A stretch of DNA of 64,000 nucleotides. Source: Haliotis asinina. Lineage: Eukaryota; Mollusca; Gastropoda; Lepetellida; Haliotidae. Numbering within the stretch: the first letter of the stretch is position 1; each line of letters begins with the position of its first letter. Under the pieces are notes generated by a model. It made no database searches. It had not been told where the DNA came from and saw only the letters and a program-made list of their open reading frames with translations. Made by a program: the position numbers and the translations under genes. The DNA lies in NCBI RefSeq assembly GCF_037392515.1, contig NC_090280.1, forward strand, positions 22,511,118 through 22,575,117, written 5' to 3'. Shown here one piece after another: positions 1,834 through 63,671 of this stretch.

Positions 1834-2175
1834 GTCCTACAACGAGGACCTGTCTACATCCAGCAACTTCCTGTCCATTGCTTCCCTGATAGTAGTAAGT
1901 ACCAGCGTCATTGTAGATGGTGAACCTCAGCTGTCCGGTCTGTGATGGTGAGTCCTCCCCGGTGTATCTGATCCTGGTCCCGTAGCCGGTGTGACTGTTG
2001 TTGAGTCCCACTAGTCGGTGTGAGCTAGGGATGACTACTGACAGTTTCTTAGATACCGAGCCATTCATAAACACGGAGTATACTGAGCTGACATTCTCCG
2101 GGTTCATGGCCATGGTAACATCTTCACCAACACGTGTAACAGTGTATGGGTATCCAATTGTCATGGAGACTAGAG
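1834..2175 (-). CDS. V1: V-like Ig domain exon (degenerate but open)
   Basis: This exon encodes a V-like Ig domain of the receptor family. It is bounded by an AG acceptor at its right end and a GTGAGT donor at its left end, 342 nt, phase 1-1. The family landmarks are present: GYPYTVTRVGEDVT near the start, RIRYTGEDSPSQ in the middle and DAGTYY near the end. Compared with V2 and V3 it has lost 12 nt in frame before DAGTYY, the tyrosine-cysteine is now YYY (Cys to Tyr), and the strand-C tryptophan is phenylalanine. The frame is still open. The remaining exons of its gene would lie left of the window. It is either a diverging V domain or one at the start of decay. Confidence 0.8.
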
Positions 2176-2396
2176 CTGCACTCAAAACAAATATTACTCA
2201 TGAAAACAAGGCTAACAGTTGACATAAATATTCAAGCTCATTATTGAAGCCCGCTCAATATATTACAAGTTGATAGGTACATACCACATATGCAGGTACG
2301 CAAACGAATTGTGAACCAGAAATTAACGCGTCAAAATATCTAGTTTTTCTAAAAATATTTTCTTTAATGTGTTTATTTCAGCTGACAGGTACATAC

Positions 2397-2472
2397 CACA
2401 CACATGTAAGCCCCAAAAGAGAATGTGAGCCACAGACATGGCTACTAGCGTGGTAAATTCATACTGACACAT
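2397..2472 (-). CDS. Leader (signal peptide) exon of V1
   Basis: A 76-nt exon read from ATG at 2472 to a GTATGT donor at 2396. It encodes MCQYEFTTLVAMSVAHILFW and five more residues, then one base, giving phase 1 into V1. The hydrophobic second half fits a signal peptide. A second in-frame ATG at codon 12 is also kept in V2 and V3 and could be the true start. The homologous exon precedes every V exon in the window. The 300 bases to its right are conserved beside V2, V4 and V5 and are the likeliest place for a promoter, but I see no clear core element. Confidence 0.75.
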
Positions 2473-3147
2473 CACGCACTGTAATAATTGTTTTCAAGAG
2501 ATGAAATATTTAGATTCGATGGATGATGTTTCCCTACAAAAAATGGGTAACTTCCCGTTGAATTTAAACACATGCCTACGAGGTCTTAGCCTTTAATAAT
2601 CAGTAACTAGTTGTTTACATTCAAATGGACAGACAAGTAACATTGATGACAGACTACTCACAAACCTACCTGTGGTTGGTAATGTTGCAGCTATATCGCA
2701 GCTATAACACTTCAGTATACTCAGCTTTTCTCGGCTGCCTTTATTGTATTTTCTCAAACCGGCCTTGATTGTCTCAACAAAGTCCCAAGTGCTGAAACTG
2801 CCACATGTTAAGACGTTAATCGTAAGGTTGACCCGAGGGAGAAAAAGGTTCACTGCCTGTAATGAGAAATTACAGGGATTCCACAGGAGGACAGAAGATG
2901 ACTAAAGGGGGCGTCTAGAGGTCCGACGACGAAAGTACAGTTTTAGTTGTTCTGTGGCCACAAATGCCGTTACATATCCCTAACCAATATCTATTGTCTA
3001 TCTAATTAGCACATGAGTTCAATTCACGTGTAAACCTATTATTTAGTTCCCTCCAGAGATGACAGAACTGTTTTATTATGGTTTGCCGAAAGGGATACGC
3101 ATTTTAACTGGGATAAGACTGAAGTGGTTGTTTTAAATAGTGGTGGT

Positions 3148-5455
3148 TACAATATGAAATGTAATGCAAAGGATTCATTTTATGTCAGTCTTACAAACGA
3201 TTTTTTACTTGATTTGTATTGCAGTGATAACAATTCCTACTGGAAATTACTTCGGTTCTTGATTAAAGATTCAGGATCCATCACTTGTATTCCGCCTTTG
3301 AAACAAAATGATGCAGATGAAAATCCAACTTTATTATTATTTATACGCAGAAAGCAGAGAAACTTAATCAGTATTTTCAGTCTATATCTAGTATTAACGA
3401 AGTAAACACTGATTTGCCATTCTCTGACAAACTATTTTGGATTGTGTAACTATTTATGTAAATGAAGTGTCTGATATAATCCAATGTTTACATCTTGAAA
3501 AAGCTTCTGGCCCGGACAGAATCAGTCATAAGTTTCTTAAAAGTGTAGCACATTCAATAAGTATTCCCCTATGCATGCTATTCAATCAATCATTAAAGAC
3601 TCGTATATAAATCAAGTATGAGAAAAGAAGCAAATGTAAATCCCTTATTAAAAAGGGCGACCGCTCAATTGTCTCTAACTATCGACCTATGTCCTTGATC
3701 AGTTGTGTGGGCAAGGTGTTTGAGACAGTGATGTTCAAACATCTGTACAACTATTTTCATGTAAATCAATTGTTATTATATAAGTACCAATCAGGATTTC
3801 AGTCTGGTCATTCAACTGTCCATCAATTATTTGAAATATATGACCAAATATGTGAGGCCTTAGATGATTAAAAACACTATTGTATGGTGTTTTGTGATGT
3901 CTCTAAAGCTTTTGATCGTGTGTGGCCTAAAGGTTTATTGTTGAAATTAGAAAAGTACGGAATTCATGGTTCTTTGTTAAATTGGTTAGATGATTACATA
4001 AGTAATCGTTCACAAAGCGTCTTTGTAAATGGAGCCCTATCCAAGCCGAGGTATTTACAAGCTGGTGTCCCACAAGCTGATGACTTAGACTGCTTGACAC
4101 GATTATTTGCTGATGATTCGTCGCTAGGCTTATCTTCTCATGATCATCTATTCATTGAAAGAGAACTGAATTCAAACTTGGAATATCTTCTAAGTATCTG
4201 TTGAAAATTGGGCTTGGGCAAAGCGGTGGCTTATAACATATAATCCTGATAAAACTGAGGCAACTATTTTCACCTTACATAGGAATATTTAGGCATTCAA
4301 TCTCTACTTCAACGGGGTTCGGGTCTAAACCGTTGAAAATCATAAACATTTGGGATTAACGTTTACAAAAGATTGTAAATGGTCTGACCACATTGATAAT
4401 ATTGTAAAAACAACTTCAAAATTGATATCTTCTCTACGTAAACTTAATTTTTTAATACCGCGCTGTGTATTGAATAGAATTTATGTAATGTTCATAAGAC
4501 CCCATTTCGAATATGCGTGTGAGGTATGGGATGGGTGTTCTCAATACCAAGCAAATAGATTAGAACAACTGCAATTAGAAGCAGCAAGAATTGTAACAGG
4601 TTTACCCAAATATACACATCATGAACATATGTATTATGAAACTGGTTGGGAATCTTTAGCAGAGCGTAGGAGAAAACGAAAACGTTGTCTTTTTTACAAA
4701 ATACAGCATAATATGGCACCATCGTACCTTAATGATCTTGTTCCTGGGAAGGTAGCGTCTAAAAGTAACTATAATCTTCGTAACTCTGACGATGTCTCGC
4801 TTCCCTTCTCCCGTTTGAAGTTTTCTTATAATTCGTATTTTCCTTCCAAAATTAGAATGTGGAATGAATTTCCAGTTGAAGTTAGAAAAGCGTGTCACTG
4901 AATTCTTTTAAATCAAATGTTGTTGTAACACAAAACACAGCTCCCAAATACTTTGATTTTGGACCGAGAATCACTAATATCACCCTTACAAAACTACGTT
5001 ACATGTGTAGTCAACTGAATTTCGATCTATTCCGTGCTGGCATAATAGATAACCCCAAATTTTCTTGTAGATATATATGTGAAAATTCTTATCATTACCT
5101 ATTTGGCTGTCAACTATATACTCAACAGAGATCTACCATGATGGCTAATTTACGCAGTGTTACCAATGTTACTATAAACTCTGAGTTACTGCTACGTGGC
5201 AATGCAGATCTAACTTATCATGCAAATTAAAACATATTTAAACTTGTTCAAACATATATTTGTCAATCAAAAAACTTTTCTTAATTATTGCAATTGCCCC
5301 AATCCTTCTCATCTTTCTGTTCTTGTCTGTCCATCTTGTATAATGAATGTAAATAACATTATGTAAATACTATGGAGAAGGTGTTCTAAGTTGTACAACA
5401 TGTACCCAATCCTTTTCTCATGAATAAAATATGTTTAAAACAAAAACAAAACAAA
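3148..5455 (+). mobile_element. LINE (Jockey/CR1-like non-LTR retrotransposon), 5'-truncated
   Basis: The plus strand carries the palm and C-terminal part of a non-LTR reverse transcriptase in several frames: LISCVGKVFE and YQSGFQSGHSTVHQL (3689-3871), CDVSKAFDRVW and LQAGVPQ (3884-4080), the catalytic FADD box (4110), then the thumb and connection region with RPHFEYACEVWDG and LEAARIVTGLP (4350-4901), and a C-terminal domain ending in a HYLFGCQLY zinc-knuckle-like motif (4892-5230). An A-rich tail ends at 5455. It lacks the 5' end and endonuclease, has a deletion between GVPQ and FADD, and contains frame breaks, so it cannot move by itself. A 9-bp target duplication (agtggtggt) flanks it at 3139-3147 and 5456-5464. 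The family name is inferred from motifs only. Confidence 0.88.
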
Positions 5456-5464
5456 AGTGGTGGT

Positions 5465-6649: not shown

Positions 6650-7046
6650 GATTGATCAAAACCGTTTTTGCTAAATCAGTGTTGTTGATATACTGTGAGT
6701 AAAGTTCAAAGCTTGTCCTTACAAGTGCCCGCTTGCTGAAAGGACATGCTTTTTGGTAACTTCATACATCACTGCTTTGTGCAAACATCAACGTTCGCTG
6801 GGTATGTAGAGGACAAGCAGGAACAAATCTCATATTTCTACAATCGGTACAATCGGTTCAATCGGTACAGTCCTCTTTAAGAGTACCTCTGTAAAAGAGG
6901 CAACCGTGGAAACATTTTCTCTTATTGGGTGTGTAGTAAGTGGAGTACTCTTGTTTTTCCAGCTGAAATGATGAGCTAGCTGAGGTGTTAAACTGTATAG
7001 GTTCTGTGGAAGAAGTTGAAGAGTGGAGAGACGTATAGATGTGGAA

Positions 7047-7212
7047 CTGTTCCGTCAGATTAGGCTTCACCTGGTACTGTGGTCCTCTGTTGAGGAAGAT
7101 GAAGAGTGGTGAGACGTGTAGATGTGGAGCTTAAATGTCAGTTTAGGCTTCACCTGGTACTGTTGTCATGTGCTGAGGAAGATGAAGGATGGAGAGACGT
7201 GTAGATGTGGAA
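7047..7212. repeat. 83-bp repeat, two units, at 3' end of gene A
   Basis: Two units of exactly 83 bp (landmarks at 7047, 7130 and 7213). Each repeats the end of the last coding exon, including the QFHIYTSLH codons and the stop, so most of it is 3' UTR. The array is expanded to nine units in gene B. Confidence 0.85.
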
Positions 7213-7333
7213 CTGTTCCCTCAGGAGTAGCTCGTAATCATGTAGAGGTAAGACATCGTTGTTGGAAGCACGAGGTACATCACTGAAGTCATGGGATAAA
7301 CTCGCTGTCATCACAGTAAGGTAGTCACCACAT
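7150..7333 (-). CDS. Gene A last coding exon: ITAM tail
   Basis: Acceptor (attatag) at 7334; 184 nt of coding sequence in phase 2, stop TGA at 7152-7150. It encodes a cytoplasmic tail of 61 codons beginning CGDYLTVM and containing YELL-LREQFHI-YTSL at 7236-7192. This fits the ITAM consensus YxxL/I-x(6-8)-YxxL/I with a 7-residue spacer. An acidic residue precedes the first tyrosine. A further tyrosine lies in GDYLTV. It ends HPSSSSAHDNSTR. Confidence 0.85.
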
Positions 7334-7689: not shown

Positions 7690-7705
7690 CTGTTGTCCTG
7701 GTTCT
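7690..7705 (-). CDS. Gene A 16-nt micro-exon
   Basis: A micro-exon between a pyrimidine-rich AG acceptor and a GTACAT donor, identical in genes B and C. It enters in phase 1 and leaves in phase 2, and joins TM2 (or TM1, same phase) to the ITAM exon, coding E-N-Q-D-N-R across its borders. The correct frame on both sides supports it in spite of its size. Confidence 0.72.
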
Positions 7706-8308: not shown

Positions 8309-8425
8309 CTTTTATGTCCTTGCAGACAAGAACAGTGACTGCTGCCACCACAACTGCCACAGCAGTGAGCATAACGGAGTAGACAACTACGATGGGGACG
8401 ATGTCGTCTACGTTTGCATCACCTT
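8309..8425 (-). CDS. Gene A TM2: second transmembrane exon
   Basis: A 117-nt exon, phase 1-1, AG acceptor and GTACAA donor. It encodes EGDANVDD, then a hydrophobic run starting IVPIVVVYSVML and ending VTVLVC, then KDIKG. That is one membrane span followed by a stop-transfer basic residue. It resembles TM1 in layout (I-V-P near the start, C-K/R at the end). Direct joining to Ig3 would create TAA in gene A but not in B or C, so in gene A it must follow another exon or replace TM1 in a different way. Confidence 0.75.
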
Positions 8426-8892: not shown

Positions 8893-9485
8893 GCACTGTC
8901 TGTAAATAATCGAGTCTCGACCAGGCAAGCCAGTGATCAACAGCATGACCATCTATCTGCTCAAATGGGAACCGACATGGGTATTGCAAGCATGGGTTGC
9001 TGAAGGCTATCTAGCCTGGATTTTCAAATATCCTTCAGATGTAAGATAGTTCAAGCTACGTTCACTCGACATATCAGTAGCCTATACGGCAGTTCGAGTT
9101 TCACAGTCGTTACACATCATGCTAGTTGTTAACCTTCAGACACCAACCTTCTATTTCCTGGTAGCTCCCATCGTTTTCATTTTCCCTGTGATACGACACC
9201 AGACTGATAAAAGTGAACATTGATTGTGAGCATAATGAGAGGAAATTATTAAGCTGTGACACACTCTCAATTTATATCGCGCCCCAAATCGTGTATATTC
9301 ATGCCTGGTTGGTTTGTTGTTTAACGATACACTCGGCAATATCACAGATATATGTCGACGGTCTGTAAATAAATGGTTCTGGACCAGATAATCCAGTGCT
9401 CAGAAGCATAAACATCGTCACCATCCCCTAGTCAAATTTTTGCGACAAGCATGGGTTGCTGAAAAACAATTCTAAATTGGATCTT
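8893..9485. repeat. Old SINE fragments in gene A intron
   Basis: Two decayed SINE pieces, near 8893-9020 and 9312-9485, showing 'ctgtaaataa' and 'gaccagataatccagtg'. The second is shared with gene B (about 31.13-31.29 kb) and gene C (about 56.15-56.30 kb), so it predates the gene duplications. The first lies only in gene A. Confidence 0.6.
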
Positions 9486-9556: not shown

Positions 9557-9578
9557 CGATGACGAGCACATCCTCTCT
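9557..9578 (-). CDS. Gene A second 22-nt exon (REDVLVIG)
   Basis: A 22-nt exon with AG acceptor and GTGAGT donor, phase 0 to 1, coding REDVLVIG. It is homologous to the first 22-nt exon and kept in genes B and C as REAVLVIG. In frame it links the YEEI exon to TM2 or, if TM2 is skipped, to the 16-nt exon. Confidence 0.62.
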
Positions 9579-9986
9579 CTGAAAGTTTAAAGTGTGTGGA
9601 AACAATTATGCATACAAACGTAAAGTAAATATGCGTACAAACTTTTACTTTCATCACGGATGTTCTATTGTGCACATCTGTATATACCACACCCGTACAT
9701 TGCACACTGATGTTATTATTTTCCTCTACTTAGAAGTTAATGAGTATAAGAGATACTTTACATCAAACGGCATGCGTTTCAGTATGGTCAATCACTGCTC
9801 ATAGTTGTCAGAATTTGAAAATGCTTATACACCTTTAGTTTTGTATGTTGACAGCTTACCAAAAGTCCAAGACTGATTTTCAGACATTGTACATAACACT
9901 ACCCCTTTAATGATTCGTATGACTTGTTTAACGTCATCTGAATCAACTGACGTGGCGTACAACAGTGACGTCCTGCACCAACCTGC

Positions 9987-10038
9987 TATCTCCTCGTAGC
10001 CTCCGTCTGTGTCTGCGTCACGGGTGTATGTGACAACG
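9987..10038 (-). CDS. Gene A 52-nt exon (YEEI)
   Basis: Acceptor (ggcag) at 10039. Read in phase 2 it codes VVTYTRDADTDGGYEEI; read in phase 1 it codes 16 other residues and ends in TAG. The YEEI motif is the classical Src-family SH2 ligand. The donor is GCAGGT, while B and C have GTAGGT. GC donors are used at low rate in animals, so splicing here may be weak or lost. Confidence 0.6.
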
Positions 10039-10453: not shown

Positions 10454-10475
10454 CGATTAAATGTGTATCCTTTAC
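10454..10475 (-). CDS. Gene A first 22-nt exon
   Basis: A 22-nt exon with AG acceptor and GTGAGT donor. In phase 0 it reads VKDTHLIG; in phase 1, directly after TM1, it reads GKGYTFNR and hands phase 2 to the YEEI exon. Because gene A lacks the 104-nt exon, only the second reading continues from TM1. Confidence 0.6.
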
Positions 10476-12037: not shown

Positions 12038-12160
12038 CTCCACGTCTGTGTTTTCTACAAACAACAACTATGACGACAACGGCGATGACCACGATGAGGA
12101 CCGAACAGACAGCAGTCACGGGGACGGTGGAAACGACACCAGATTCAGTAACCTCACGTG
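12038..12160 (-). CDS. Gene A TM1: transmembrane exon
   Basis: A 123-nt exon, phase 1-1, acceptor (gtttcag) and GTAATA donor. It encodes SREVTESGVVSTVPVTAVCS, then a hydrophobic run rich in V and I ending VVVC, then RKHRRG. The basic cluster after the span places the C-terminus in the cytoplasm. Same length in genes B and C. Confidence 0.88.
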
Positions 12161-13324: not shown

Positions 13325-13585
13325 AGAAGACATCCAGTGTCAGGTTCCGTGATGCACTCCCATGTGTGTTGTTGACGTGACACATGTACTGTCTAGACAC
13401 AGACACATCTACAGCTGGTATAGACAACACAGCCTTCCTGTGTCCTGTCATCACCATCTGTCTTGATGTGTCCCACCAGGTTACAGTGCAGGCAGGGTTA
13501 CAGTCAGCAGAACATCTCGTCGTTACAGGTTTCCCTTCCTCCAGTTTGCCCCTTATGCCGTCAAAGTGTATCTGGTCAGGTCCAT
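13325..13585 (-). CDS. Gene A Ig3 exon
   Basis: A 261-nt exon, phase 1-1, acceptor (attgcag), GTAAGT donor. It encodes an Ig domain with the canonical set: Cys in VTTRC, Trp in VTWW, Cys in QYMC. A second cysteine pair (CNPAC) sits in the B-C region. Sites NNT and NLT are possible N-glycosylation points. It is the membrane-proximal domain. Confidence 0.9.
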
Positions 13586-14144: not shown

Positions 14145-14444
14145 AGAGAACATCCAGCACATGTTCTTGACTCCAGTCAGACTTCAGTCCCTCCTCCACA
14201 GCCTGGCAACTGTAGATGTCTCCCCAGTTCTCTCTGCTGGCGTGAATTATTGTCAGGTCATCTCCACCTGTAGGAGACTCATCACCAGATTCTAGCAGGG
14301 TCCTGTCCCTTCTCCAGATGTAGGTCATGGTCAGTAGGGGGTGGTCCTGGGGTAGACTCCGGGAGGTGGAGGAGCATGTAAGGGTGACATTCTCACCTGA
14401 TACAGGTGAGGCAGGTCCGGTGATGGTAGGTGTGGTTGGCCTCT
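14145..14444 (-). CDS. Gene A C2-type Ig exon
   Basis: A 300-nt exon, phase 1-1, acceptor (ttttcacag), GTGAGT donor. It starts QRPTTPTITGPASP and has canonical Ig residues: Cys24 (VTLTC), Trp44 (TYIW), Cys80 (IYSC). NVT gives a likely N-glycan. It is the middle Ig domain. Confidence 0.92.
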
Positions 14445-21534: not shown

Positions 21535-21888
21535 GTACTACAACGAGGACCTGTCTACATCCAGTAACTTCCTGTCCATTGGTTCCCTGACAGTAGTAAG
21601 TACCAGCGTCCTGTACAGTGACATTGTAGATGGTAAACCTCAGTTGTCCGATCTGTGATGGTGAGTCCTCTTCGGTGTATCTGATCCTGGTAATGTAGCC
21701 CGTGTGACTGCTGTTAATTACCTCTACACGGTGTGCCTTGGGCTGGACCATTAACAGTCTCACAGATACCGAACCATTCACCCATACATAATATATAAAG
21801 CTAAAACTGTCTGGTTTCATGGTCATGGTAACATCTTCGCCAACACGTGTAACAGTGTATGGGTATCCAGTTGTCATGGAGGCAAGAC
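21535..21888 (-). CDS. V2: V-like Ig domain exon of gene A
   Basis: A 354-nt exon, phase 1-1, acceptor (gagtgcag), GTGAGT donor, 118 codons. It begins GLASMTTGYPYTVTRVGEDV. Trp36 and the DAGTYYC motif (Cys100) are V-set landmarks. The strand-B position that should hold the first cysteine reads VTMTMKP, without Cys. Instead Cys111 follows in TGCRQVL, so a disulphide across the CDR3-like loop (Cys100-Cys111) is possible. NGS, NSS and NVT are candidate N-glycan sites. This is the intact outermost domain. Confidence 0.9.
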
Positions 21889-22137: not shown

Positions 22138-22213
22138 CACACACATGTAAGCCCCAAAACAGAATGTGAGTCACAGACATGTCTACTGGCGTGGTAAATT
22201 CATACTGACACAT
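22138..22213 (-). CDS. Leader (signal peptide) exon of V2
   Basis: 76 nt from ATG at 22213 to a GTATGT donor; codes MCQYEFTTPVDMSVTHILFW plus GLHVC, phase 1 out. Homologous to the V1 leader. The internal ATG at codon 12 is kept. It is the first coding exon of gene A. Confidence 0.78.
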
Positions 22214-28254: not shown

Positions 28255-28494
28255 AATTGAATAAGAATGTTTATGCTAAATCAGTGTTGTTAATATACTT
28301 TGATATACATCAGTTAAGCTCAGAGACCAATACCAGTACAATCCTCTGTTAAAAGTGGCATCGTGGCAAACATTTCCTGTTGTTGGGTGATTAGTAAATG
28401 AAGTACTCTTGTTTTGGCAGCTGAAACGTTAGCTTGTTCAGATGTTAAACTGTATAGGCTCTGTTGAAAAGTGAAAACACGTGCAGATGTGGAA

Positions 28495-29241
28495 CTGTAC
28501 CGTCAGTTTAGGTTTCACCTAGCACTGTGGTCCTCTGTTGAGGAAGATGAAGGATGGAAAGACGTGTAGATGTGAAACTGTACCGTCAGTTTAGGTTTCA
28601 CCTAGTACTGTGGTCCTCTGTTGAGGAAGATGAAGGATGGAGAGACGTGTAGATGTGGAACTGTACCGTCAGTTTAGGTTTTACCTGGTACTGTGCTCCT
28701 CTGTTGAGGAAGATGAAGGATGGAGAGACGTGTAGATGTGGAACTGTACCGTCAGTTTAGGTTTTAGCTGGTACTGTGGTCCATTGATGAGGAAGATGAA
28801 GGATGGAGAGACGTGTAGACGTGGAACTGTACCGTCAGTTTAGGTTTCACCTGGTACTGTGGTCCTCTGTTGAGGAAGATGAAGGATGGAAAGACGTGTA
28901 GATGTGAAACTGTACCGTCAGTTTAGGTTTCACCTAGTACTGTGGTCCTCTGTTGAGGAAGATGAAGGATGGAGAGATGTGTAGATGTGGAACTGTACCG
29001 TCAGTTTAGGTTTTACCTGGTACTGTGCTCCTCTGTTGAGGAAGATGAAGGATGGAGAGACGTGTAGATGTGGAACTGTACCGTCAGTTTAGGTTTTAGC
29101 TGGTACTGTGGTCCTCTGTTGAGGAAGATGAAGGATGGAGAGACGTGTAAGTGTGGAACTGTACCGTCAGTTTAGGTTTCACCTGGTACTGTGGTCCTCT
29201 TTTGAGGAAGATGAAGGATGGAGAGATGTGTAGATGTGGAA
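28495..29241. repeat. 83-bp minisatellite, nine units, at 3' end of gene B
   Basis: Landmarks recur every 83 bases exactly: 28495, 28578, 28661, 28744, 28827, 28910, 28993, 29076, 29159, 29242. Each unit copies the codons QFHIYTSLHPSSSS...STR, the stop and about 20 bases of 3' UTR. The right end overlaps the last coding exon. The rest is 3' UTR because the first unit read already contains the stop. Confidence 0.95.
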
Positions 29242-29362
29242 CTGATCCCGCAGGAGTCGTTCGTAATCGTATAGGGGTAAGACATCGTTGTTTGAAGCAC
29301 GAGGTACATCACTGAAGTCATGGGATAATCTCTCTGCCATCACAGTGAGATATTCACCAAAT
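29179..29362 (-). CDS. Gene B last coding exon: ITAM tail
   Basis: Acceptor (gattacag) at 29363, phase 2 in, stop TGA at 29181-29179. Begins FGEYLTVMAERLSHDF; ITAM YERL-LRDQFHI-YTSL at 29265-29221, spacer 7. Two tyrosines close together (PLYDYERLL) give one more possible phosphosite than gene A. Ends HPSSSSKEDHSTR. Confidence 0.88.
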
Positions 29363-29707: not shown

Positions 29708-29723
29708 CTGTTGTCCTGGTTCT
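29708..29723 (-). CDS. Gene B 16-nt micro-exon
   Basis: Identical to the gene A micro-exon; AG acceptor after a pyrimidine tract and GTACAC donor; phase 1 to 2; codes ENQDN and part of R. Confidence 0.72.
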
Positions 29724-30293: not shown

Positions 30294-30410
30294 CTTTCAC
30301 GTCCCTGCAAACAAGAACAGTGACTGCTGACACCACAACTGCCACAGCAGTCAGCATAATGGAGTAGACAGCTACGATGGGGACGATGTCGTCTACGTTT
30401 GCATCACCTT
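30294..30410 (-). CDS. Gene B TM2 exon
   Basis: 117 nt, phase 1-1, donor GTACAA. Codes EGDANVDDIVPIVAVYSIML, more hydrophobic residues, then VC-RDVKG. Joining it directly to Ig3 would be open here (Lys at the junction), so TM2 could replace TM1 in gene B. Confidence 0.74.
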
Positions 30411-31129
30411 CTGATACAAGACAAAGATGACACATATCTGTATTAAGTATGATAATTCATGTGACAATATAGCGACGTATTTCACCATTGTGTAGTTTCT
30501 AGTTCCTGTTACAGCACTAAATAACTTTATGACATAAATAATGTCAACTGACAAAACAGTATTTTGCTCTACAAGAACTATGACACAATAAAGTAACCAA
30601 GCGATGAATAAGGAAGAATCATTCACCGGGATGATCATTACAGCTCTCTAGACTAGTGGATCCTTTTCCCCAACACGTCCTATCACCAATATCTGGTCGT
30701 CCTTTATGAACACTGAGAAATGTCCTAAGTATTCGGACATCTAGAATATCCGACTCTATTTACAATGTTATAGCTATTCTATTATGGCTATTTCAGACTA
30801 AATAATCGGGGGTTTTGGTCTCCTTGGTTGGTTTGAGACACGAGTCCTGTTCCAGGCTTCAGACACTAGCCAGTTCGTGCTACGTTTACTCGACATATCA
30901 GTACCCTATACGGCAGTTCGAGTTTCACAATGGTTACACATCATGCTAGCTGTTAACCTTCAGACACCAACCTTCTATTTCCTGGTAGCTCCCATCGTTT
31001 TCGTCTTCCCTGTGATACGACACCACACTGGTAAAAGTGAACATTGAACGTGAGCATAATGAGAGGAAATTATTAAGCTGTGACACGCTCTCAGTTCATA
31101 TCGCGCTCCTAGTCGTGTATAGTTTTGTC

Positions 31130-31364: not shown

Positions 31365-31386
31365 CGATGACGAGCACAGCCTCTCT
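31365..31386 (-). CDS. Gene B second 22-nt exon (REAVLVIG)
   Basis: AG acceptor (actttcag), GTGAGT donor, phase 0 to 1. Confidence 0.62.
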
Positions 31387-31726
31387 CTGAAAGTTTAAAG
31401 TGTGTGGGAACAATTATGCATACAAACTTAAAGTATATATTTATTTCTTGCACACTGATATTACCATTTTTTCTCCATTTAGAAGTTTAAGAGTTTAAGA
31501 GATACTGTACATCATAAGGTATGAGTTTCAGTAGAAGGTCAATCAGTGCTAATAGTTGTCAGAATTATAAAATGTTAATAGACCTGTAGTTTTGGTTGCA
31601 AACGGTTGCGGACTGTTTTTCAGACATTCTACATAACACTACCCCTTAAATACTTCGTATGACCTGTTTAACGTCATCTGAATCAACCGACGTGACGTAC
31701 TAGAATGACGTCCAGCACCAACCTAC

Positions 31727-31778
31727 TATCTCCTCGTAGCCTCCGCCTGTGTCTGCGTCACGGGTGTAAGTGACAACG
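31727..31778 (-). CDS. Gene B 52-nt exon (YEEI)
   Basis: Strong acceptor (ccttcccccag) and GTAGGT donor. Phase 2 reading: VVTYTRDADTGGGYEEI, continuing in phase 0. Phase 1 reading: ALSLTPVTQTQAEATRR then TAG at the exon's last bases and first intron base. Both readings are preserved in all three genes. Confidence 0.68.
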
Positions 31779-32155: not shown

Positions 32156-32177
32156 CGATTACATGTGCATCCTTTAC
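32156..32177 (-). CDS. Gene B first 22-nt exon
   Basis: AG acceptor (gtttcag) and GTGAGT donor. Phase 0 after the 104-nt exon: VKDAHVIG. Phase 1 after TM1: GKGCTCNR, then phase 2 into the YEEI exon. Confidence 0.63.
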
Positions 32178-33173
32178 CTGAAACAAATAATTTTGTGTAA
32201 ATAATGACATATCCACAATGTTAGATGCAAAATAGAAGATAAACGAATTTCCGGTATAATTATACATCTTTGAAGTGGAAATAAATATCTTGCTATTTGT
32301 AGAACGACATGTTTATAGAACGACATGTTTGTAGAACGACATGTTTGTAGAACAAACGCAACCTGAGTAACACCAGTGTCTTGAAGCATGAATGTCGATT
32401 AAAACTAGTGTCCTGGAGCCAATGTAAACATAAACTTGGAAACTGAAGTCCATTAAACATGTAAATTTGTGCACACTGTTGATATATATCCTCTTCAAGC
32501 ATCATCTTGAAGGTTCCATACAGAATTACTTTAGAAACGCGAGTATCATATTATCATTCATTATGGAGGATGCAAAACGAACAGAAACTGTGCTCGAATT
32601 AATCTGACTTTCACAGATGAACTTGACGCATACCAAGAAATGCCCACGTGACCCACCATTTGCTGGAAATCAACTTTTCACCTGCAAAATCCGTGAAAAT
32701 GCAAAAATGTGGCGTTTTCACAACACATTGTCAGATCAGTCAACTGTGTACCAAAATCACACCGAAATTTTGAACTGCACCAAATTGTTGACTTGGGCAC
32801 AACATGTGATCGAGCACATCTTTGCCAACCATGTGTCTAGCCCGAGATCGCCGCATACAAGTTCAAGCCAGCCTCCAGAACAGATATTACCATTCATGGA
32901 AGAAGGGATATCGTCAGTCTCCAGACGGTACGATAGCGATTACGTCAGCAAGGGCTGCGTGCGCATAAGTATTCTATTCACTGACGAGTCCTGATTTCAT
33001 CTCAGTCATGCGTATACAAGGATCAGAGTGACGTGGACAGCGTAACGGTGATTGTTGAGTTCAGCAGCGTTGAGGGAAGCGTATTACTAATGATTTGTTG
33101 AGAGACTGATAGTCATGACAGGACACGTGTGGACGTCTGCCGTAGTCGAGTTACAGCTCAAAATGATACTTAC

Positions 33174-34212: not shown

Positions 34213-34335
34213 CTCCACGTCTCTGTTTTCTACAAACAACAACTATGACGACAATGGCGATGACCACGATCAGGATGGAGCAGACAGCAGTCACTGGGAC
34301 GATGGAAACGACACCAGATTCATTAACCTCGCGTC
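34213..34335 (-). CDS. Gene B TM1 exon
   Basis: 123 nt, phase 1-1, acceptor (gtttcag), donor GTAAAA. With the last base of Ig3 it begins REVNESGVVSIVPVTAVCS, then a V/I-rich span and CRKQRRG. In gene A the Ig3 end base and TM1 start both differ. The junction codon stays open in each gene, but the gene A Ig3 end joined to this TM1 would give TGA. Confidence 0.88.
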
Positions 34336-34844: not shown

Positions 34845-35111
34845 TGAAGACCTCTAGTGTCAGGTTGCGTGATGCACTCCCATGGCTGTTGTTGACGTGA
34901 CACGTGTACTGTCCAGACACAGACACATCTATAGCTGGTATAGACAACACAGCCTTCCTGTGTCCTGTAATCACCATCTGTCTGGATGTGTCCCACCAGG
35001 TTACAGTGCAGGCAGGGTTACAGTCAGCAGAACATCTCACTGTTACAGGTTTCCCTTCTTCTACCTGCAGCTTGTCCCTTGTGCCGTGAAACTGCATCTG
35101 GTCAGGTCCAT
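34845..35111 (-). CDS. Gene B Ig3 exon
   Basis: 267 nt, phase 1-1, donor GTAAGG. Ig domain with Cys27, Trp39 and Cys71 and the extra pair Cys31/Cys35 (CNPAC). Two codons longer than gene A and three longer than gene C near the first strand (DKLQVEEG). Confidence 0.9.
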
Positions 35112-36707: not shown

Positions 36708-37010
36708 AGAGGACATCCAGTACATGTTCGTGACTCCAGTCAGACTCCAGCCCCTCCTCCACAGCCTGGCAGCTGTAGGTGTCTCCCTGGTTCTCTCCGC
36801 TGACCTGGGTTATTGTCAAGTTATCTCCACCTGTTGGAGACTCATCACCAGATTCTAGGAGGGTCCTGTCCCTCCTCCAGATGTAGGTCATGGTCAGTTG
36901 GGGGTGGTCCGGGGGCAGACTCCGGGACGAGGAGTTGGAGCATGTGAGGGTGACATTCTCACCTGATACAGGTGAGGCAGGTCCGGTGATGGTAGGTGTG
37001 GTTGGCCTCT
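36708..37010 (-). CDS. Gene B C2-type Ig exon
   Basis: 303 nt, phase 1-1, GTGAGT donor. QRPTTPTITGPASP start, canonical Cys (VTLTC), Trp (TYIW), Cys (TYSC). One extra codon (SNSSS) after the first cysteine adds an N-glycan site. Confidence 0.92.
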
Positions 37011-37804: not shown

Positions 37805-38158
37805 GTGCTACAACGAGGACATGTCTACATCCAGTAACATTCTCTCCATTGCTTCCCTGACAGTAGTAAGTACCAGCGTCCTGTACAGTAACATTGTAGA
37901 TGGTAAACCTCAGCTGTCCGTTCTGTGATGGTGAGTCCTCCCCGGTGTATCGTATCCTGGTAATGTAGCCAGTGTGACTGTTGTTGAATACCCATACACG
38001 GTGTGTCTTGGACTGGACCAGTAACAGTCTCTTAGATACAGAACCATTCCCCACTACAAAATACTGGAAGCTGACATTTTCTGGGTTCATGGCCATGGTA
38101 ACATCTTCACCAGCACGTGTAACAGTGTGTGGGTATCCAATTGTCATGGACACTAGAG
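37805..38158 (-). CDS. V3: V-like Ig domain exon of gene B
   Basis: 354 nt, phase 1-1, acceptor (atacag), GTGAGT donor. ALVSMTIGYPHTVTRAGEDV start; the strand-B cysteine position is VTMAMNP (no Cys), the strand-C tryptophan is replaced (YFVVGNGS), DAGTYYC is kept and TGCRHVL gives the second cysteine of the F-G pair. It lies 0.8 kb from the C2 exon, so it is the natural partner of the gene B constant exons. Confidence 0.9.
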
Positions 38159-38294
38159 CTGTATACGAAAAGGTAATTAGAATCAGAACTCAACAACCCT
38201 AGATACAGACGTTGGACATTGCGTAAGATTAAAGTGAAAAGCAACTTAATCAGAGATTCAATATATATTTCAGTTTTCGAAAACAGATACATAC

Positions 38295-38370
38295 CAAACC
38301 CACATAGTGCTACGGACACAATGGAACCCAGAAACATAGTCACTACAGTGGTAAGCAGAAACTGACAGAT
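38295..38370 (-). CDS. Leader exon of V3
   Basis: Same length (76 nt) and donor (GTATGT) as the other leaders, but the first codon of the family is ATC here. In-frame starts are the conserved ATG at codon 12 (38337), giving MFLGSIVSVALCGF as a short signal peptide, or an upstream ATG at 38433. I cannot decide from sequence alone. Confidence 0.62.
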
Positions 38371-38553
38371 ACAGTCTCTGATATAATGCGTCACATAATG
38401 TAGTTTCACTAAGCAATATTTCCTGATAAACATTTCCCGGTGAACCTTACGTTGTGCGACGATATTTCACTGTGAATGATATACGTTTTTTTGTGAATAT
38501 GTCCTCCATCAACGCCCACATGGATACAATGTGTCAAACCCATCTCTGGTGAT

Positions 38554-41859: not shown

Positions 41860-42208
41860 GTGCTACAACGAGGACATGTCTACATCCAGTAACTTCCTGT
41901 CCATTGTTTCCCTGACAGTAGTAAGTACCAGCGTCCTGTACAGTAACATTGTAGATGGTAAACCTCAGTTGTCCGGTCTGTGATGGTGAGTCCTCCTCGG
42001 TGTATCTGATCCTGGTCCTGTAGCCGACTACTGTTGAGTACCTCTACACGGTGTGACTTGGACTGGACCAGTAACAGTCTCTTAGATACCGAACCATTTA
42101 CCCATACATAATATAAGAAGCTGACATTGTTTGGGTTCATGGCCATGGTAACATCTTCACCAACACGTGTAACAGTGTATGGGTATCCAGTTGTCATGGA
42201 GACTAGAG
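41860..42208 (-). pseudogene. V4: frameshifted V-like Ig exon
   Basis: 349 nt against 354 in V2/V3: five bases are missing after the NSS codons (near 42024), which shifts the frame of the second half so that the DAGTYYC part is out of frame. Splice sites are intact. The first half reads like a normal V (MNPNNVSFLYYVWVNGSVSK). The same lesion is in V5, so it arose before the tandem duplication. Confidence 0.88.
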
Positions 42209-47733: not shown

Positions 47734-48082
47734 GTGCTACAACGAGGACATGTCTACATCCAGTAACTTCCTGTCCATTGTTTCCCTGACAGTAGTAAGT
47801 ACCAGCGTCCTGTACAGTAACATTGTAGATGGTAAACCTCAGTTGTCCGGTCTGTGATGGTGAGTCCTCCTCGGTGTATCTGATCCTGGTCCTGTAGCCG
47901 ACTACTGTTGAGTACCTCTACACGGTGTGACTTGGACTGGACCAGTAACAGTCTCTTAGATACCGAACCATTTACCCATACATAATATAAGAAGCTGACA
48001 TTGTTTGGGTTCATGGCCATGGTAACATCTTCACCAACACGTGTAACAGTGTATGGGTATCCAGTTGTCATGGAGACTAGAG
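47734..48082 (-). pseudogene. V5: frameshifted V-like Ig exon
   Basis: Identical in reading to V4, including the five-base deletion. It is the first V unit left of gene C. Confidence 0.88.
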
Positions 48083-53813: not shown

Positions 53814-54053
53814 AATTGAGTAAAATTGTTGATGCTAAAACAGTGTTGTTAATATACTTTGATATACATCAGTTAAGCTCAGAGACCAATACCAGTACAA
53901 TCCTCTGTTAAAAATAGCATCGTGGCAAACATTTCCTCTTGTTGGGTGATTAGTAAATGAAGTACTCTTGTTTTGGCAGCTGAAACGTTAGCTTGTTGAG
54001 ATGTTAAAATGTATAGGCTCTGTTGAAAAGTGGAGACACGTGCATATGTGGAA

Positions 54054-54219
54054 CTGTACCGTCAGTTTGGGTTTCACCTGGTACTGTGGTCCTCTGTTGA
54101 GGAAGATGAAGGATGGAGACACGTGCATATGTGGAACTGCACCGTCAGTTTAGGTTTCACCTAGTACTGTGGTCCTCTGTTGAGGAAGATGAAGGATGGA
54201 GAGACGTGTAGATGTGGAA
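54054..54219. repeat. 83-bp repeat, two units, at 3' end of gene C
   Basis: Landmarks at 54054, 54137 and 54220. Same unit as in genes A and B. Confidence 0.85.
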
Positions 54220-54340
54220 CTGATCCCGCAGGAGTCGTTCGTAATCGTATAGGGGTAAGACATCGATGTTGGAAGCACGAGGTTCATCACTGAAGTCATG
54301 GGATAATCTCTCTGCCATCACAGTGAGATATTCACCACAT
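54157..54340 (-). CDS. Gene C last coding exon: ITAM tail
   Basis: Phase 2 in, stop at 54159-54157. Begins CGEYLTVMAERLSHDF; ITAM YERL-LRDQFHI-YTSL at 54243-54199; ends HPSSSSTEDHSTR. Confidence 0.88.
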
Positions 54341-54683: not shown

Positions 54684-54699
54684 CTGTTGTCCTGGTTCT
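54684..54699 (-). CDS. Gene C 16-nt micro-exon
   Basis: Identical in sequence and phase to those of genes A and B; donor GTACAC. Confidence 0.72.
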
Positions 54700-55319: not shown

Positions 55320-55436
55320 CTTTCACGTCCTTGCAGACAAGAACAGTGAGAGCTGCCACCACAACTGCCACAGCAGTCAGCATAACGGAGTAGACAGCTA
55401 CGATGGGGACGATGTCGTCCACGTTTGCATCACCTT
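55320..55436 (-). CDS. Gene C TM2 exon
   Basis: 117 nt, phase 1-1. EGDANVDDIVPIVAVYSVML then a hydrophobic remainder, VC-KDVKG; donor GTACAA. Confidence 0.74.
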
Positions 55437-56154
55437 CTGATATAAGACAAAGATGACACATATCTGCATTAAGTAGGATAATTCAAGTGACAATACAGCG
55501 CCGTATTTCACCATGGTGTATGTTCTAGTGTCTGTTAAAGCATTAATTTACTTTATGACATAAATAATGTCAACTGAGAAAATAGTATTTTGCTCTGCAA
55601 GAACTATAACGCAATAAAGTAAGCAAGCCATGAATAAGGAAGAATCATTCACCGGGATGACCATTACAGCTCTCCAGACTAGTGGATCCTTTTCCCCAAC
55701 ACGGCCTATCACCAATATCTGGTCGTCCTTTATGAATACTGAGAGAAGTACTCAGTATTCGGACATCTAGAAAATCCGACTATTTACAATGTTATAGCTA
55801 TTCTATTATGGCTATTTCAGACTAAATAATCGGGGGTTTGGTCTCCTTGGTTGGTTTGAGACACGACTCCCGTTCCAGGCTTCAGACACTAGACAGTTCG
55901 AGCTACGTTTACTCGACATATCAGTACCCTATACGGCAGTTCGAGTTTCACAGTCGTTACACATCATGCTAGTTGTTAACCTTCAGACACCAACCTTCTA
56001 TTTCCTGGTAGCTCCCATCATTTTCGTCTTCCCTGTGATACGACACCACACTGGTAAAAGGGAACATTGAACGTGAGCATAATGAGAGGAAATTATTAAG
56101 CTGGGACACGCTCTCAGTTCACATCGCGCTCCTAGTCGTGTATAGTTTTGTCTG

Positions 56155-56384: not shown

Positions 56385-56406
56385 CGATGACGAGCACAGC
56401 CTCTCT
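56385..56406 (-). CDS. Gene C second 22-nt exon (REAVLVIG)
   Basis: Same sequence, splice sites and phase as gene B. Confidence 0.62.
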
Positions 56407-56757
56407 CTGAAAGTTTAAAGTGTGTGGGAACAATTATGCATACAAACTGAAAGTATATATTTACTTCTTGCACACTGATGTTACCATTTTTTCTACATTT
56501 AGAAGTTTAAGAGTTTAAGAGAAACTGTACATCATACGGTATGAGTTTCAGTAGAAGGTCAGTCAGTGCTAACAGTTGTCACGGATTTTAAAATGTTACA
56601 GACCTATAGTTTTGAATGTTGACAGCTTGCAACAAGTCCAGGACTGTTTTTCAGACATTCTACATAATGCTACCCCTTTAACAATTCGTATGACCTGTTT
56701 AACGTCATCTGATTTAACTGACGTGGAGTACAACAATGACGTCCAGCACCAACCTAC

Positions 56758-56809
56758 TATCTCCTCGTAGTCTCCGTCTGTGTCTGCGTCACGGGTGTAT
56801 GTGACAACG
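56758..56809 (-). CDS. Gene C 52-nt exon (YEEI)
   Basis: Phase 2 reading VVTYTRDADTDGDYEEI; phase 1 reading ends ETTRR-stop. GTAGGT donor, acceptor tttcccctag. Confidence 0.68.
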
Positions 56810-57211: not shown

Positions 57212-57233
57212 CGATAATATGTGCATCCTCTAC
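57212..57233 (-). CDS. Gene C first 22-nt exon
   Basis: Phase 0 VEDAHIIG, or phase 1 GRGCTYYR; GTGAGT donor. The phase 0 reading is the more conservative among the three genes and looks like the second 22-nt exon, which argues that the 104-nt exon is usually included in B and C. Confidence 0.63.
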
Positions 57234-59217: not shown

Positions 59218-59340
59218 CTCCACGTCTCTGTTTTCTACAAACAACAACTATGACGACAATGGCGATGACCACGATCAGGATGGAGCAGACAGCAGTCACT
59301 GGGACGATGGAAACGACACCAGATTCATTAACCTCGCGTC
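59218..59340 (-). CDS. Gene C TM1 exon
   Basis: Practically identical to gene B TM1; 123 nt, phase 1-1, donor GTAATA. Confidence 0.88.
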
Positions 59341-59940: not shown

Positions 59941-60138
59941 TCATCAGATTAATAGTCAAGATTGACCTCCTGAGCCATATTACTAGTTTGTATAAATACC
60001 TGTTCAGACTGTCTGTGTGTTTTGAGAAATTTGAAGGGAGTAAAAACTTAAAAGTCATTATATATCTCATTCAAATGTAATCTTGAATTTTACATATTCT
60101 GTCACGAAGTATGTTTCCGGAATCTGTGGAGGCCTTAC

Positions 60139-60396
60139 TGAAGACCTCTAGTGTCAGGTTGCGTGATGCACTCCCATGGCTGTTGTTGACGTGACACGTG
60201 TACTGTCCAGACACAGACACATCTATAGCTGGTGTAGACAACACATCCTCCCCGTGTCCTGTAATCACCATCTGTCTGGATGTGTCCCACCAGGTTACAG
60301 TGCAGGCAGGGTTACAGTCAACGGAACATCTCACTATCACAGGTTTCCCCTCTTCTACCTCCCATGTGCCGTGAAACTGTATCTGGACAGGTCCAT
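60139..60396 (-). CDS. Gene C Ig3 exon
   Basis: 258 nt, phase 1-1, donor GTAAGG. Canonical Cys (VIVRC), Trp (VTWW), Cys (QYTC) and extra CNPAC. Differences from gene B include VDCNPAC for ADCNPAC and GEDVLSTP for RKAVLSIP, both in likely surface loops. Confidence 0.9.
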
Positions 60397-60867
60397 CTGC
60401 AAAGCGTGTGAGATAATCAGAAATAATAATTTGATATTTTCTTCTATCATACCAATACCAAGGCATATCAATTTCAATTGAATTAATGTTTCATCAACTT
60501 TAGGTTTAGACTTTTGAAGTTGGTTAGGTTTAATTTTTTCTCATGCCAGGCTACATCTTCTAGCCTTATCGAGTCTAGGCTCATCAATATAAGATTCCCA
60601 GTTTCAAAGATCTTACTGTTGTCACGAAACATTACATTCAAATGCAAACGACGACACATTACGCACATTCTGTTTTTGTTCCTATAAGTCATACGTGTCC
60701 CGTATCAGTCAGGTATATCCGACAGGATGAACTTACTATTATATCTCTAATGATCAGTGCCTGTACCAGATATTGTCAACGTTTCATGCATTTTACCGTA
60801 TTCTTAATTGTAAACCCAATATTGTCACTGTTTTAAAAAGAAGCGCTTTTAAGGAGAGAAGCTCCGT

Positions 60868-61125
60868 GAGTGAGTGAGGGAATGGATTGCGCTTTACGCA
60901 GCAGTCAGCAATAGTCGAGCTCTGTGAATAATCGAGACTGGACCAGACAATCCAGTTATCAACAACATGAGCATCGATCTGCTCAACTGGGAACCGATGA
61001 CATGTGTCCACCAAGTCAGTGAACCTGACCACCCGATCCCGTTAGTCGCCTTTTATAACAAGTATAGTCGCCTTTTATGGCAAGCATGGGTTGGTGAAGG
61101 CCTATTCTACCCCGGACCTTCGGGG
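60868..61125 (+). mobile_element. SINE in gene C, shared with gene B
   Basis: Paralogous to 35826-36112 in the same intron; includes a repeated 'agtcgccttttat'. Both copies predate the split of B and C or inserted in their common ancestor. Confidence 0.8.
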
Positions 61126-61129
61126 ATCC

Positions 61130-62065
61130 AAAATCTCCATGACGCTCAGGGCTGTTGTCACAGACTAAGTTATTTCAATAAGTTTCTTTGAAGCTTCATT
61201 TATTCAAACGATCAATTTGTTTCAACATATGTCCAAAGTGCACTGAAATTCTGTCCCCTTTGTCTATGTCATGTATTCAGCAAACATTCGGTGTATCCCC
61301 TCTTAACATCACCAACCCTCCGGGCAGGACCCTTAATTCTCAAACGTTATCAATATATGGCAGTTAACACTTCCCTACGTCGGCGAATCTTACGTATATA
61401 CATGTGCATGGGCCAGTGACCTTGCACAATGTGGCGTAATGGCCCTGTGTATAAAAATCTGAATGATATGATCAGTTGGCGAGACCAGCCAGGGAGACCA
61501 ACCAAGGAGATCAGTCAGGAAAACAAGAAGCGAACGGATTGTGCGGTTAGTCGGGTTGTCGGCCAAGGCCGTCGCTCCAAATACGACTACGTCGACGGTG
61601 AAGAAACGCCTTCCGACTTCTGAATGTGTGAGGTGACAGAACGGGTCTCCAAATCAGGAACATTGGCCACTCAGTCCTGTCACATGTTTACCACTGTATA
61701 TACCTTTGCGACCATCATTCGACCAAACAATAATAAAACATGGCTGCTGCTATCTTCTTCTCTACCACTGACTTTTGTTTTTCTTCCGTCTCTTGTCCAC
61801 CATCCTGAACTACCACCAGACAGCAACCACAAACGAACTCTCTTAGGCAAGTATACTCTTAAAACAAGTAGGGTAACCTGAACTTTGAAATCTGGTAGAA
61901 AGAAAACCCATTCAGGAACGTTACAATGACATTCTTTTTGTGTATGCAGCATCATTTCACGTTATCACCACACGCAAACACAATGCATGGGAAGCACGTG
62001 CACAACGTCGGACCCTCCTACGCGTGCATGGGGTGCCATTATGAATCCTGACGTTTCTCAGGCTC
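61130..62065. other. Unassigned insertion in gene C intron
   Basis: About 935 bases absent from the same intron of gene B, whose sequence resumes near 62,070 ('ttttcttgcattcgtggatg'). Short reading frames only. I cannot assign it to a family. Confidence 0.5.
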
Positions 62066-63371
62066 TTCCGTAGACTGTATTTTTCGGATAGTTTTCTTGC
62101 ATTCGTGGATGGTCAGAGTTCAGAGGTCAAATCACACACTTCTCACTGAAAATTGTAAACCTGAAATGTTCATGACATACTCCAGTCACCTAACAAGGGG
62201 GATAAGTGAACGAACAGGTATGCTTTGAATGAAATCCAGGTGGAAGTTGGTTATGTTCTCAAAACATCCATTGTTACTGTATCAGCATTGATTCAATCGC
62301 ATATATCTCCCAATTTCGACAATCATACATTGAAAGTACAGTTCACTTACTGTTTTTAAGAGTATATATGAAATCTGGGAAAAGAATGCCTCTTAAAACA
62401 GTTTTGAAATTATTATCATGTTGAGGTTTGAAATTTCCAGAAAGTTGTGTCCCATCCCTATCCTTTATCCATCTCCACTGAGAAATGTACAAGTACAGTG
62501 TTAACCATTACTGATGAATGAATGAAGACTCAGTACAAGGTAAAATACCAACTACTCATTCAACGTGTGGCACAGGCCTTCATGACTGTCACAATCAAGT
62601 ATGAATTGTCCATAATTTATATCAAGAGGACCTTCATTAACAGTTACGTATCTTGCCATCACGTTGAAACAAGATCAACATTGAAATATTAGTTCTAAGG
62701 TAACCAGTTAAAACCCCTTTCGTTTAGTAAACGACCACCGCTCAACTTTTGGCCCGCGTGGTTGGTATCGAATCTCATGTGTTCCGTATTTTCCTGATAT
62801 TTTACATAACCTTGTTTTGACCTTTGTCTGTCACCGTGCATTTACATTATCTGAAATCTGCATATTTGATGCTACGCTAGAATTGCAAGCCTGAGGAACA
62901 TAAATTGGCGCTTTCGTAACCCGTGTCATGTGATTCAGTAAATGTATGTATTGTTAGTTTTGTGTTGATCGTTTGTATTTGAGCTGAGTGGTCCGTTTTG
63001 CTCATATCTAAAGCACATGTCCAGGTCAGCAACAATGACATGACATATTTTTGGTCACTGGTGTATATTCGATAAAACACCTGACACCGCTTGCCTTTGA
63101 AGCTGAAAGCTTTCATCACAGTTTCTGACTATGTTCTCTCCCAACAGTCAATAACGCCCTATTGTTAGCGCCATGAGCATACTTGGTGTGGAGTTTGGCG
63201 CTATATCAATGGACACATTATTATGTTGTTGCTGTCATTAATTCCCAACCGAACCACCAAGTTACTATCACAATAATGATTCAGGACCTAAAGGTTCTAT
63301 GTAAGCTGCATGCTAAGTTGTATAGATATACGAGGTTCCTGTACCGTAAACAAAGGTACGTTCTTACTCAC

Positions 63372-63671
63372 AGAGGACATCCAGTACATGTCCGTGACTC
63401 CAGTCAGACTCCAGCCCCTCTTCCACAGCCTGGCAGCTGTAGTTGTCTCCCTGGTTCTCTCTGCTGACGTGGGGTATTGTAAGGTCATCTCCACCTGTAG
63501 GAGACTCATCACCAGATTCCAGCAGGGTCCTGTCCCTCCTCCAGATGTAGGTCATGGTCAGAGGGGGGTGGTCCGAGGGTAGACTCCGGGACGAGGAGGA
63601 GCATGTGAGGGTGACATTCTTACCTGACACAGGTAAGGCAGGTTCGGTGATGGTAGGTGTGGCTGGCTTCT
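63372..63671 (-). CDS. Gene C C2-type Ig exon
   Basis: 300 nt, phase 1-1, acceptor (ttttcacag), GTGAGT donor. QKPATPTITEPALP start; Cys (VTLTC), Trp (TYIW), Cys (NYSC). Confidence 0.92.

Follow-up and report, generated by a model that had tools for sequence, protein, structure and literature searches.

The DNA considered here is a 64,000-nt window of Haliotis asinina contig NC_090280.1, and all coordinates are positions in this window. It carries, all on the minus strand, a tandem array of genes predicted to encode receptors with a membrane-distal V-like immunoglobulin (Ig) domain, two further Ig domains, a transmembrane (TM) segment and a tail that in one of its forms contains an immunoreceptor tyrosine-based activation motif (ITAM). 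On balance we take these genes to be germline-encoded, single-chain type I receptors of V-Ig-Ig architecture, in which the signalling tail is probably chosen by splicing among three 3' cassettes. From high to low coordinates the array runs from set C of the constant exons (63671-54157) through the V exons V5 (48.1 kb) and V4 (42.2 kb), gene B (leader 38337 to tail 29179) and gene A (leader 22180 to tail 7150) to V1 with its leader (2439-1834). The complete genes within the window are A and B, with V2 completing A and V3 completing B. The V exon belonging to set C would sit past base 64000, and the constant exons going with V1 would precede base 1. Each of the constant-exon sets A, B and C consists of ten exons in the order Ig2, Ig3, TM1, s1, tail A, s2, tail B, TM2, s3, tail C, which were located in all three sets by aligning the gene B exons onto A and C. 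Exon order and phases are the same in the three sets and exon sizes are nearly equal. A preliminary description of the locus is borne out overall, and its outer limits coincide with ours: the V1 exon ends at 1834 and the set C Ig2 exon starts at 63671. The exons are as follows.

63372..63671, minus: set C Ig2 exon
60139..60396, minus: set C Ig3 exon
59218..59340, minus: set C TM1 exon
57212..57233, minus: set C microexon s1
56596..56809, minus: set C tail A exon, DTDGDYEEI, 70-aa form
56385..56406, minus: set C microexon s2
55969..56050, minus: set C tail B exon
55320..55436, minus: set C TM2 exon
54684..54699, minus: set C microexon s3
54157..54340, minus: set C tail C exon, ITAM YERLLRDQFHIYTSL
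47734..48082, minus: V5, decayed V exon, 5-bp deletion, frame broken
41860..42208, minus: V4, decayed V exon, identical to V5
38295..38337, minus: gene B leader exon, MFLGSIVSVALCGF, GT donor, ends in phase 1, no match elsewhere in the window
37805..38158, minus: gene B V-like Ig exon (V3), phase 1-1, Pfam V-set 28.3 bits (cut-off 26)
36708..37010, minus: gene B Ig2 exon (C2-like), phase 1-1
34845..35111, minus: gene B Ig3 exon (I-set), phase 1-1
34213..34335, minus: gene B TM1 exon
32156..32177, minus: gene B microexon s1, 22 nt, phase 1-2
31700..31778, minus: gene B tail A exon, GGYEEI, stop
31365..31386, minus: gene B microexon s2, 22 nt
30946..31027, minus: gene B tail B exon, ENDGSYQEI, stop
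30294..30410, minus: gene B TM2 exon, homologous to TM1
29708..29723, minus: gene B microexon s3, 16 nt
29179..29362, minus: gene B tail C exon, ITAM YERLLRDQFHIYTSL, stop
22138..22180, minus: gene A leader exon, MSVTHILFWGLHVC, in-frame ATG upstream at 22213
21535..21888, minus: gene A V-like Ig exon (V2)
14145..14444, minus: gene A Ig2 exon
13325..13585, minus: gene A Ig3 exon, last base T
12038..12160, minus: gene A TM1 exon
10454..10475, minus: gene A microexon s1
9825..10038, minus: gene A tail A exon, DTDGGYEEI, 70-aa form
9557..9578, minus: gene A microexon s2
9122..9203, minus: gene A tail B exon
8309..8425, minus: gene A TM2 exon
7690..7705, minus: gene A microexon s3
7150..7333, minus: gene A tail C exon, ITAM YELLLREQFHIYTSL
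2397..2439, minus: V1 leader exon, MSVAHILFWGLHVC, in-frame ATG upstream at 2472
1834..2175, minus: V1 exon, in frame, without the F-strand Cys and four residues

All 30 constant exons are open and have an AG acceptor, a GT donor is present in all 21 internal ones, and an in-frame stop ends each of the nine tail exons. Ig and TM exons are of phase 1-1, microexons of phase 1-2, and the tails begin in phase 2, a scheme that keeps several splice routes in frame. The joins TM1-s1-A, TM1-s2-B and TM1-s3-C are in frame in 3/3 sets. For gene B, the joined exons give 396 residues with tail A, 397 with tail B, and 429 or 427 with tail C reached via TM1 or TM2; the joined lengths for gene A are 438, 394 and 426 residues. 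Of the eight leader-to-tail combinations tried in genes A and B, seven give an open frame of 394 to 438 codons; the exception is the Ig3-TM2 route in gene A, which reaches a stop after 319 residues.

The constant exons are better conserved than the sequence around them. Between B and C, exons are 94.2% identical and alignable non-exon sequence (6677 of 7986 bases) 87.5%; between B and A the values are 91.0% and 83.1% (4448 of 7986 bases). All four indels in constant exons are multiples of three, compared with 31/148 outside them (17/73 for B-C, 14/75 for B-A). With tail A trimmed to its first 25 codons, the ratio of non-synonymous to synonymous change (dN/dS) over the constant exons is 0.46 for A-B, 0.49 for A-C and 0.64 for B-C. 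The excess of dS over dN is significant by one-sided Fisher test for A-B (p 0.0002) and A-C (p 0.0003) and non-significant for B-C (p 0.08). It is also found for the TM and cytoplasmic exons alone in the two pairs tested, A-B (p 0.0095) and A-C (p 0.0056). Compared with random non-exon windows, TM1, tail C and, less surely, tail B are exceptional in both the B-C and the B-A comparison; for tail B, 6% (B-C) and 0.3% (B-A) of the windows are equally conserved. Ig2, Ig3 and TM2 are exceptional in B-A only, and s1, s2, s3 and tail A are clearly exceptional in neither. By identity, indel and dN/dS tests, the three sets of shared order, sizes and phases that the preliminary description had reported are thus recovered above chance.

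TM1 and TM2 are homologous, as are tail A and tail B (0/500 shuffles as good in each case). Since TM1 and TM2 are homologous and both occur in all three sets, the intragenic duplication preceded copying of the gene. A shared origin of tail C with tail A or tail B was not found, 142 and 415 of 500 shuffles, respectively, being as good. The tail C exon encodes an ITAM of canonical spacing in 3/3 sets, YERLLRDQFHIYTSL in B and C and YELLLREQFHIYTSL in A, where the ITAM pattern is taken as YxxL/I, 6 to 12 residues, YxxL/I in a cytoplasmic tail. From the exon order, tail C would be cytoplasmic. Shuffling of the tail C peptides produces the pattern in 228 (A), 332 (B) and 491 (C) of 20000 cases, or 1.1, 1.7 and 2.5%; what gives it weight is its retention in each of the three sets, B and C being close copies of one another.

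Tails A contain GGYEEI or GDYEEI and tails B GSYQEI, that is, a single tyrosine motif without an ITAM. pYEEI is a preferred site of the Src SH2 domain. The length of tail A is 25 aa in B and 70 aa in A and C. All six tail A and tail B exons, together with their microexons, keep splice sites, frame and the Y[EQ]EI motif. The immunoreceptor tyrosine-based inhibition motif (ITIM, [SIVL]xYxx[ILV]) occurs in 0/9 tails and the strict hemITAM pattern (acidic triad-G-YxxL) in 0/6 tails A and B; a looser hemITAM-like pattern, devised after seeing the tails, is matched by 5/6, with gene B tail A failing. The second TM exon and the two shorter homologous tails (YEEI, YQEI), present in every set in compatible phases, are absent from the preliminary description, which had proposed a built-in activating motif. 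Its order of leader, V, Ig, Ig, TM and ITAM is backed by the sequence, and the ITAM is indeed found in 3/3 tail C exons. Each gene has in addition two ITAM-less tails and a second TM exon, so that the ITAM is one of three possible outputs.

An 83-bp minisatellite begins within the ITAM exon, at 7003-7224 in A (2.7 copies), 28479-29244 in B (9.2 copies) and 54031-54222 in C (2.3 copies). Its repeats reproduce the second half-ITAM codons together with the stop, and judged by the reading frame the first copy alone would be translated. Viral relatives of the ITAM tail were also considered; 23 pattern matches occurred in viral contigs and none was confirmed.

Turning to the recognition end, each of the five V exons is flanked by AG on the acceptor side and by GTGAGT on the donor side. 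V1, V2 and V3 alone keep a leader with a GT donor, and GC stands at that site in V4 and V5. The V4 and V5 exons are identical and share a 5-bp deletion that breaks the frame; their units lie 5.87 kb apart and are 98.4% identical over 4.68 kb aligned. V1 is in frame and has lost four residues and the F-strand Cys. Five leader-plus-V units had been counted before: the five V exons stand, the leader with its GT donor is confined to three of them, and two are broken in frame. The description of a clustered family that duplicates and decays is upheld by this birth and decay of copies. The leader of gene B and its 5' flank (38158-38400) are unlike those of V1, V2, V4 and V5, and homology starts at the V acceptor, as if the gene B V exon had been placed under another leader.

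In a Pfam scan of V1 to V3, V3 reaches 28.3 bits with the V-set model (cut-off 26), V2 reaches 21.5 and V1 gives no match. In a V-set domain, a Cys in strand B pairs with a Cys in strand F. Strand B reads VTM[AT]M in all three in-frame V exons, with Met replacing Cys, and the F-strand Cys is kept in two of them; the B-F pair is accordingly missing. The V-like domain has a further Cys 11 residues past the F-strand Cys, and a disulfide joining these two residues (F-G) would replace the canonical Ig one. The Trp at the core position is present in V2, V4 and V5 and absent in V1 and V3. An AlphaFold model of the V domain has a mean predicted local distance difference test score (pLDDT) of 35.6, too low for use. 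Assignment of V to a family from solved structures was tried and abandoned: the best E value is 5e-4 (NCAM2, Fc epsilon RI alpha), the matches are mostly short stretches around the F strand, and such weak and short matches allow no family assignment. Comparison of V with Ig2 profiles gives a weak match of 26 columns with a probability of 1.2%.

The V region had been called variable. The exons do differ, mainly within codons 24-57 and not in the stretch resembling complementarity-determining region 3 (CDR3), which is nearly constant. Among the five V exons the residue differs at 37/117 codons, and 21 of these lie within codons 24-57, which by position would be strands C to C'' of the V domain. 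Such clustering was equalled in 2/10000 shuffles, for a window length of 34 that was chosen after viewing the alignment. Overall dN/dS of V is 0.58 to 0.69. Within codons 24-57, non-synonymous change is raised and synonymous change ordinary for V2-V3; for pairs involving V1 both kinds are raised, which would also be expected from gene conversion or a mosaic origin. Given the synonymous rise in the V1 pairs, the variable block is no demonstration of selection, and positive selection on it was set aside.

By Pfam, Ig2 and Ig3 are ordinary Ig domains. Each of the six exons concerned scores above the cut-off of at least one Pfam Ig model, as do V2 and V3 among the V exons, and the paired Cys and the core Trp expected of I-set/C2 domains are kept in 3/3 sets. 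Ig3 has two additional cysteines. Its best sequence matches among solved structures are Ig domains of titin, Dscam and contactin, and a model of it, with a modest pLDDT of 60.9, agrees with Ig folds, among them those of myomesin, titin and Robo1. Ig3 thus resembles I-set domains by sequence and, as far as a modest model indicates, by fold. For Ig2, no clear relative was found among solved structures (best E 0.008).

Exon order, frames, phases, splice sites, conservation over three sets and the homologies within the TM1/TM2 and tail A/tail B pairs are direct observations at this locus. We infer that the genes are expressed, that each cassette is used, and that the products signal, bind a ligand and have an immune or allorecognition role. 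Each complete gene would provide a leader, a membrane-distal V-like Ig domain, two more Ig domains, one TM segment and a tail from one of three cassettes. When the V-like domain binds its ligand the receptors would cluster, and Src-family kinases would phosphorylate the tail tyrosines. The ITAM form could then recruit a tandem-SH2 kinase of the Syk type, and the YEEI and YQEI forms could recruit single-SH2 proteins. Cassette choice would in this way set the output to two tyrosines, as in the ITAM, or one. More tentatively, and with rather more doubt than belief, one may picture an invertebrate receptor with one recognition end and a spliced menu of signalling ends, ITAM or single-tyrosine, by which the response to the same ligand is rewired, in a gene that has been copied in tandem with its V-like domains diverging and the canonical Ig disulfide swapped for an F-G one.

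Several observations weigh against a choice among three tails. Tail A is unexceptional, 30% of non-exon windows being equally conserved in B-C and 5.6% in B-A; the least conserved exon in B-C is microexon s1, and single tail exons are too short for showing constraint. As B and C are close copies, the sets cannot be counted as three separate lines of evidence. In gene A, the Ig3-TM2 junction (13325 / 8425) forms a TAA stop and gene B reads through; the junction bases of set C are the same as in gene B. The ITAM of gene A is consequently reachable via TM1 alone, or in a double-TM form, and a soluble form ending at this stop is conceivable from the sequence. AATAAA or ATTAAA is found in 0/3 sets within 1.5 kb past tail B, which counts either against tail B or for an unusual signal. 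The single AATAAA common to all sets after tail A sits 33 nt beyond s2 and not directly after tail A. Poly(A) signals average 1.9 per 1.5 kb on the minus strand; some occur past tails A and C, where, being so common by chance, they say little.

A rival possibility is that there is a single real output, with leader, V, Ig, Ig and TM joined to one tail, most likely the ITAM, and that the other cassettes are leftovers of internal duplication, skipped or used in rare early-terminating forms. The missing poly(A) signal past tail B in 3/3 sets, the varying length of tail A (25 aa in B versus 70 aa in A and C) and the conservation of tail A and s1, no better than that of many non-exon windows, would fit it. 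We still regard it as unlikely, because the six tail A and tail B exons with their microexons retain splice sites, frame and Y[EQ]EI, and tail B surpasses 94% of the non-exon windows in conservation for B-C and 99.7% for B-A. The array could instead belong to a neural or adhesion Ig superfamily with Dscam-like logic, its tyrosine tails serving adhesion signalling and its ITAM being a loose match without immune meaning. Titin, Dscam and contactin as the best solved-structure matches of Ig3 point in this direction, as do the 1.1 to 2.5% of shuffled tails with an ITAM pattern and shrimp Dscam, which is reported to have likewise alternative TM and stop exons and a predicted ITAM in one tail exon (PMC6851185). 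With just three Ig exons among the exons found, V-bearing units that were recently tandem-duplicated and decayed, and ITAM spacing retained in 3/3 sets, we hold such an origin to be distinctly unlikely.

Two further explanations concern the array as a whole. The broken V4 and V5 and a V1 without its F-strand Cys would suit a dying array, with every copy on its way to a pseudogene and none expressed. In genes A and B, however, 7/8 joins (not Ig3-TM2 in A) leave a frame of 394 to 438 codons open and dS lies above dN, which makes such decay of the whole array very unlikely. Least probable of all is an assembly artefact, in which part of the repeat structure would stem from two haplotypes assembled one after the other. 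At 98.4% identity over 4.68 kb, the V4 and V5 units could be so explained, but they are a minor part of the claim, and the alignable non-exon divergence of B from C (12.5%) and from A (16.9%) is above the usual allelic difference. The reading of tandem receptors with spliced tail cassettes is the one we retain as the more probable.

The remaining features of the window are few. A remnant of a retrotransposon reverse transcriptase lies at 3872-4204 on the plus strand (Pfam RVT_1, E 4.8e-7), with open frames continuing to 5230; the open frame 4329-4901 was scanned and had no clear match. At 32608-32994 on the plus strand, in the TM1-s1 intron, is a transposase-like relic (LFTDES), presumably Tc1/mariner-like, which aligns with the matching places in sets A and C. 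Two short pieces at 63884-63978, just upstream of the set C Ig2 exon, are like the start of an Ig2 exon and perhaps represent a partial duplication. Scans for tRNAs and Rfam families found nothing.

Vertebrates are well known to have clusters of Ig receptors whose tails carry tyrosine motifs. Such receptors have also been reported in cnidarians and tunicates, and the Hydractinia Alr family is counted among the closest known systems. In the fuhc locus of Botryllus schlosseri, two loci of the fester co-receptors (FcoR) are described as able to swap their signalling motif via alternative splicing (PMC12065747). By the same description, FcoR are type I proteins with a variable-type and two C2 Ig domains, a TM segment and a tyrosine-motif tail, and form clusters with birth and death, as do the genes described here (PMC12065747). 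The two differ, insofar as FcoR can be compared by description, in that FcoR has a sushi domain and ITIM, hemITAM or core motifs, whereas we find no sushi domain among the exons found, an ITIM in 0/9 tails and a full ITAM. A review mentions an oyster (Crassostrea gigas) receptor with five Ig domains, a TM segment and an ITAM under the name CgIgIT2 (PMC11999971). The title of its reference 93 calls CgIgIT2 inhibitory, and the name may therefore be confused with the receptor of its reference 95 (PMC11999971). Both the oyster receptor, as the review summarises it, and those of Haliotis are single-chain with Ig, TM and ITAM, with five Ig domains in the oyster and three here (PMC11999971). On this report, Ig-TM-ITAM receptors are not new to molluscs.

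For Penaeus monodon Dscam, alternative TM exons, alternative stop-bearing tail exons and a predicted ITAM in one tail exon are reported (PMC6851185). Dscam is a single large gene with arrays of exons and encodes ten Ig and six FN3 domains, in contrast to the small genes repeated whole that we observe. The gastropod VIgL and FREP are Ig-bearing immune molecules of diversified molluscan families (PMC9334734, PMC11999971). VIgL combine Ig with a lectin domain; here, TM and ITAM exons are present and no lectin exon is among the exons found, a lectin domain having no match in the exons scanned (V1 to V3, all copies of Ig2 and Ig3, and a single copy of each type of tail and TM exon). No match to a well-described molluscan receptor family was seen in Pfam, PDB sequences and open-licence papers, which are weak means for this purpose, and no prior description of this gene family was found in the open-licence literature.

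Among reported systems, the logic comes nearest to the motif swap of Botryllus FcoR and to the alternative TM and stop exons of Dscam. With related designs in FcoR, arthropod Dscam and the oyster receptor, the ITAM-bearing V-Ig-Ig array is a further case of a reported kind. A comparable cluster, with several signalling tails per gene, would add to the evidence on how frequently recognition systems have arrived at a shared tyrosine pathway, and the locus offers a concrete place for testing a splicing switch of receptor output. It is the presence of three alternative tails and two TM exons in every set that makes the locus worth following.

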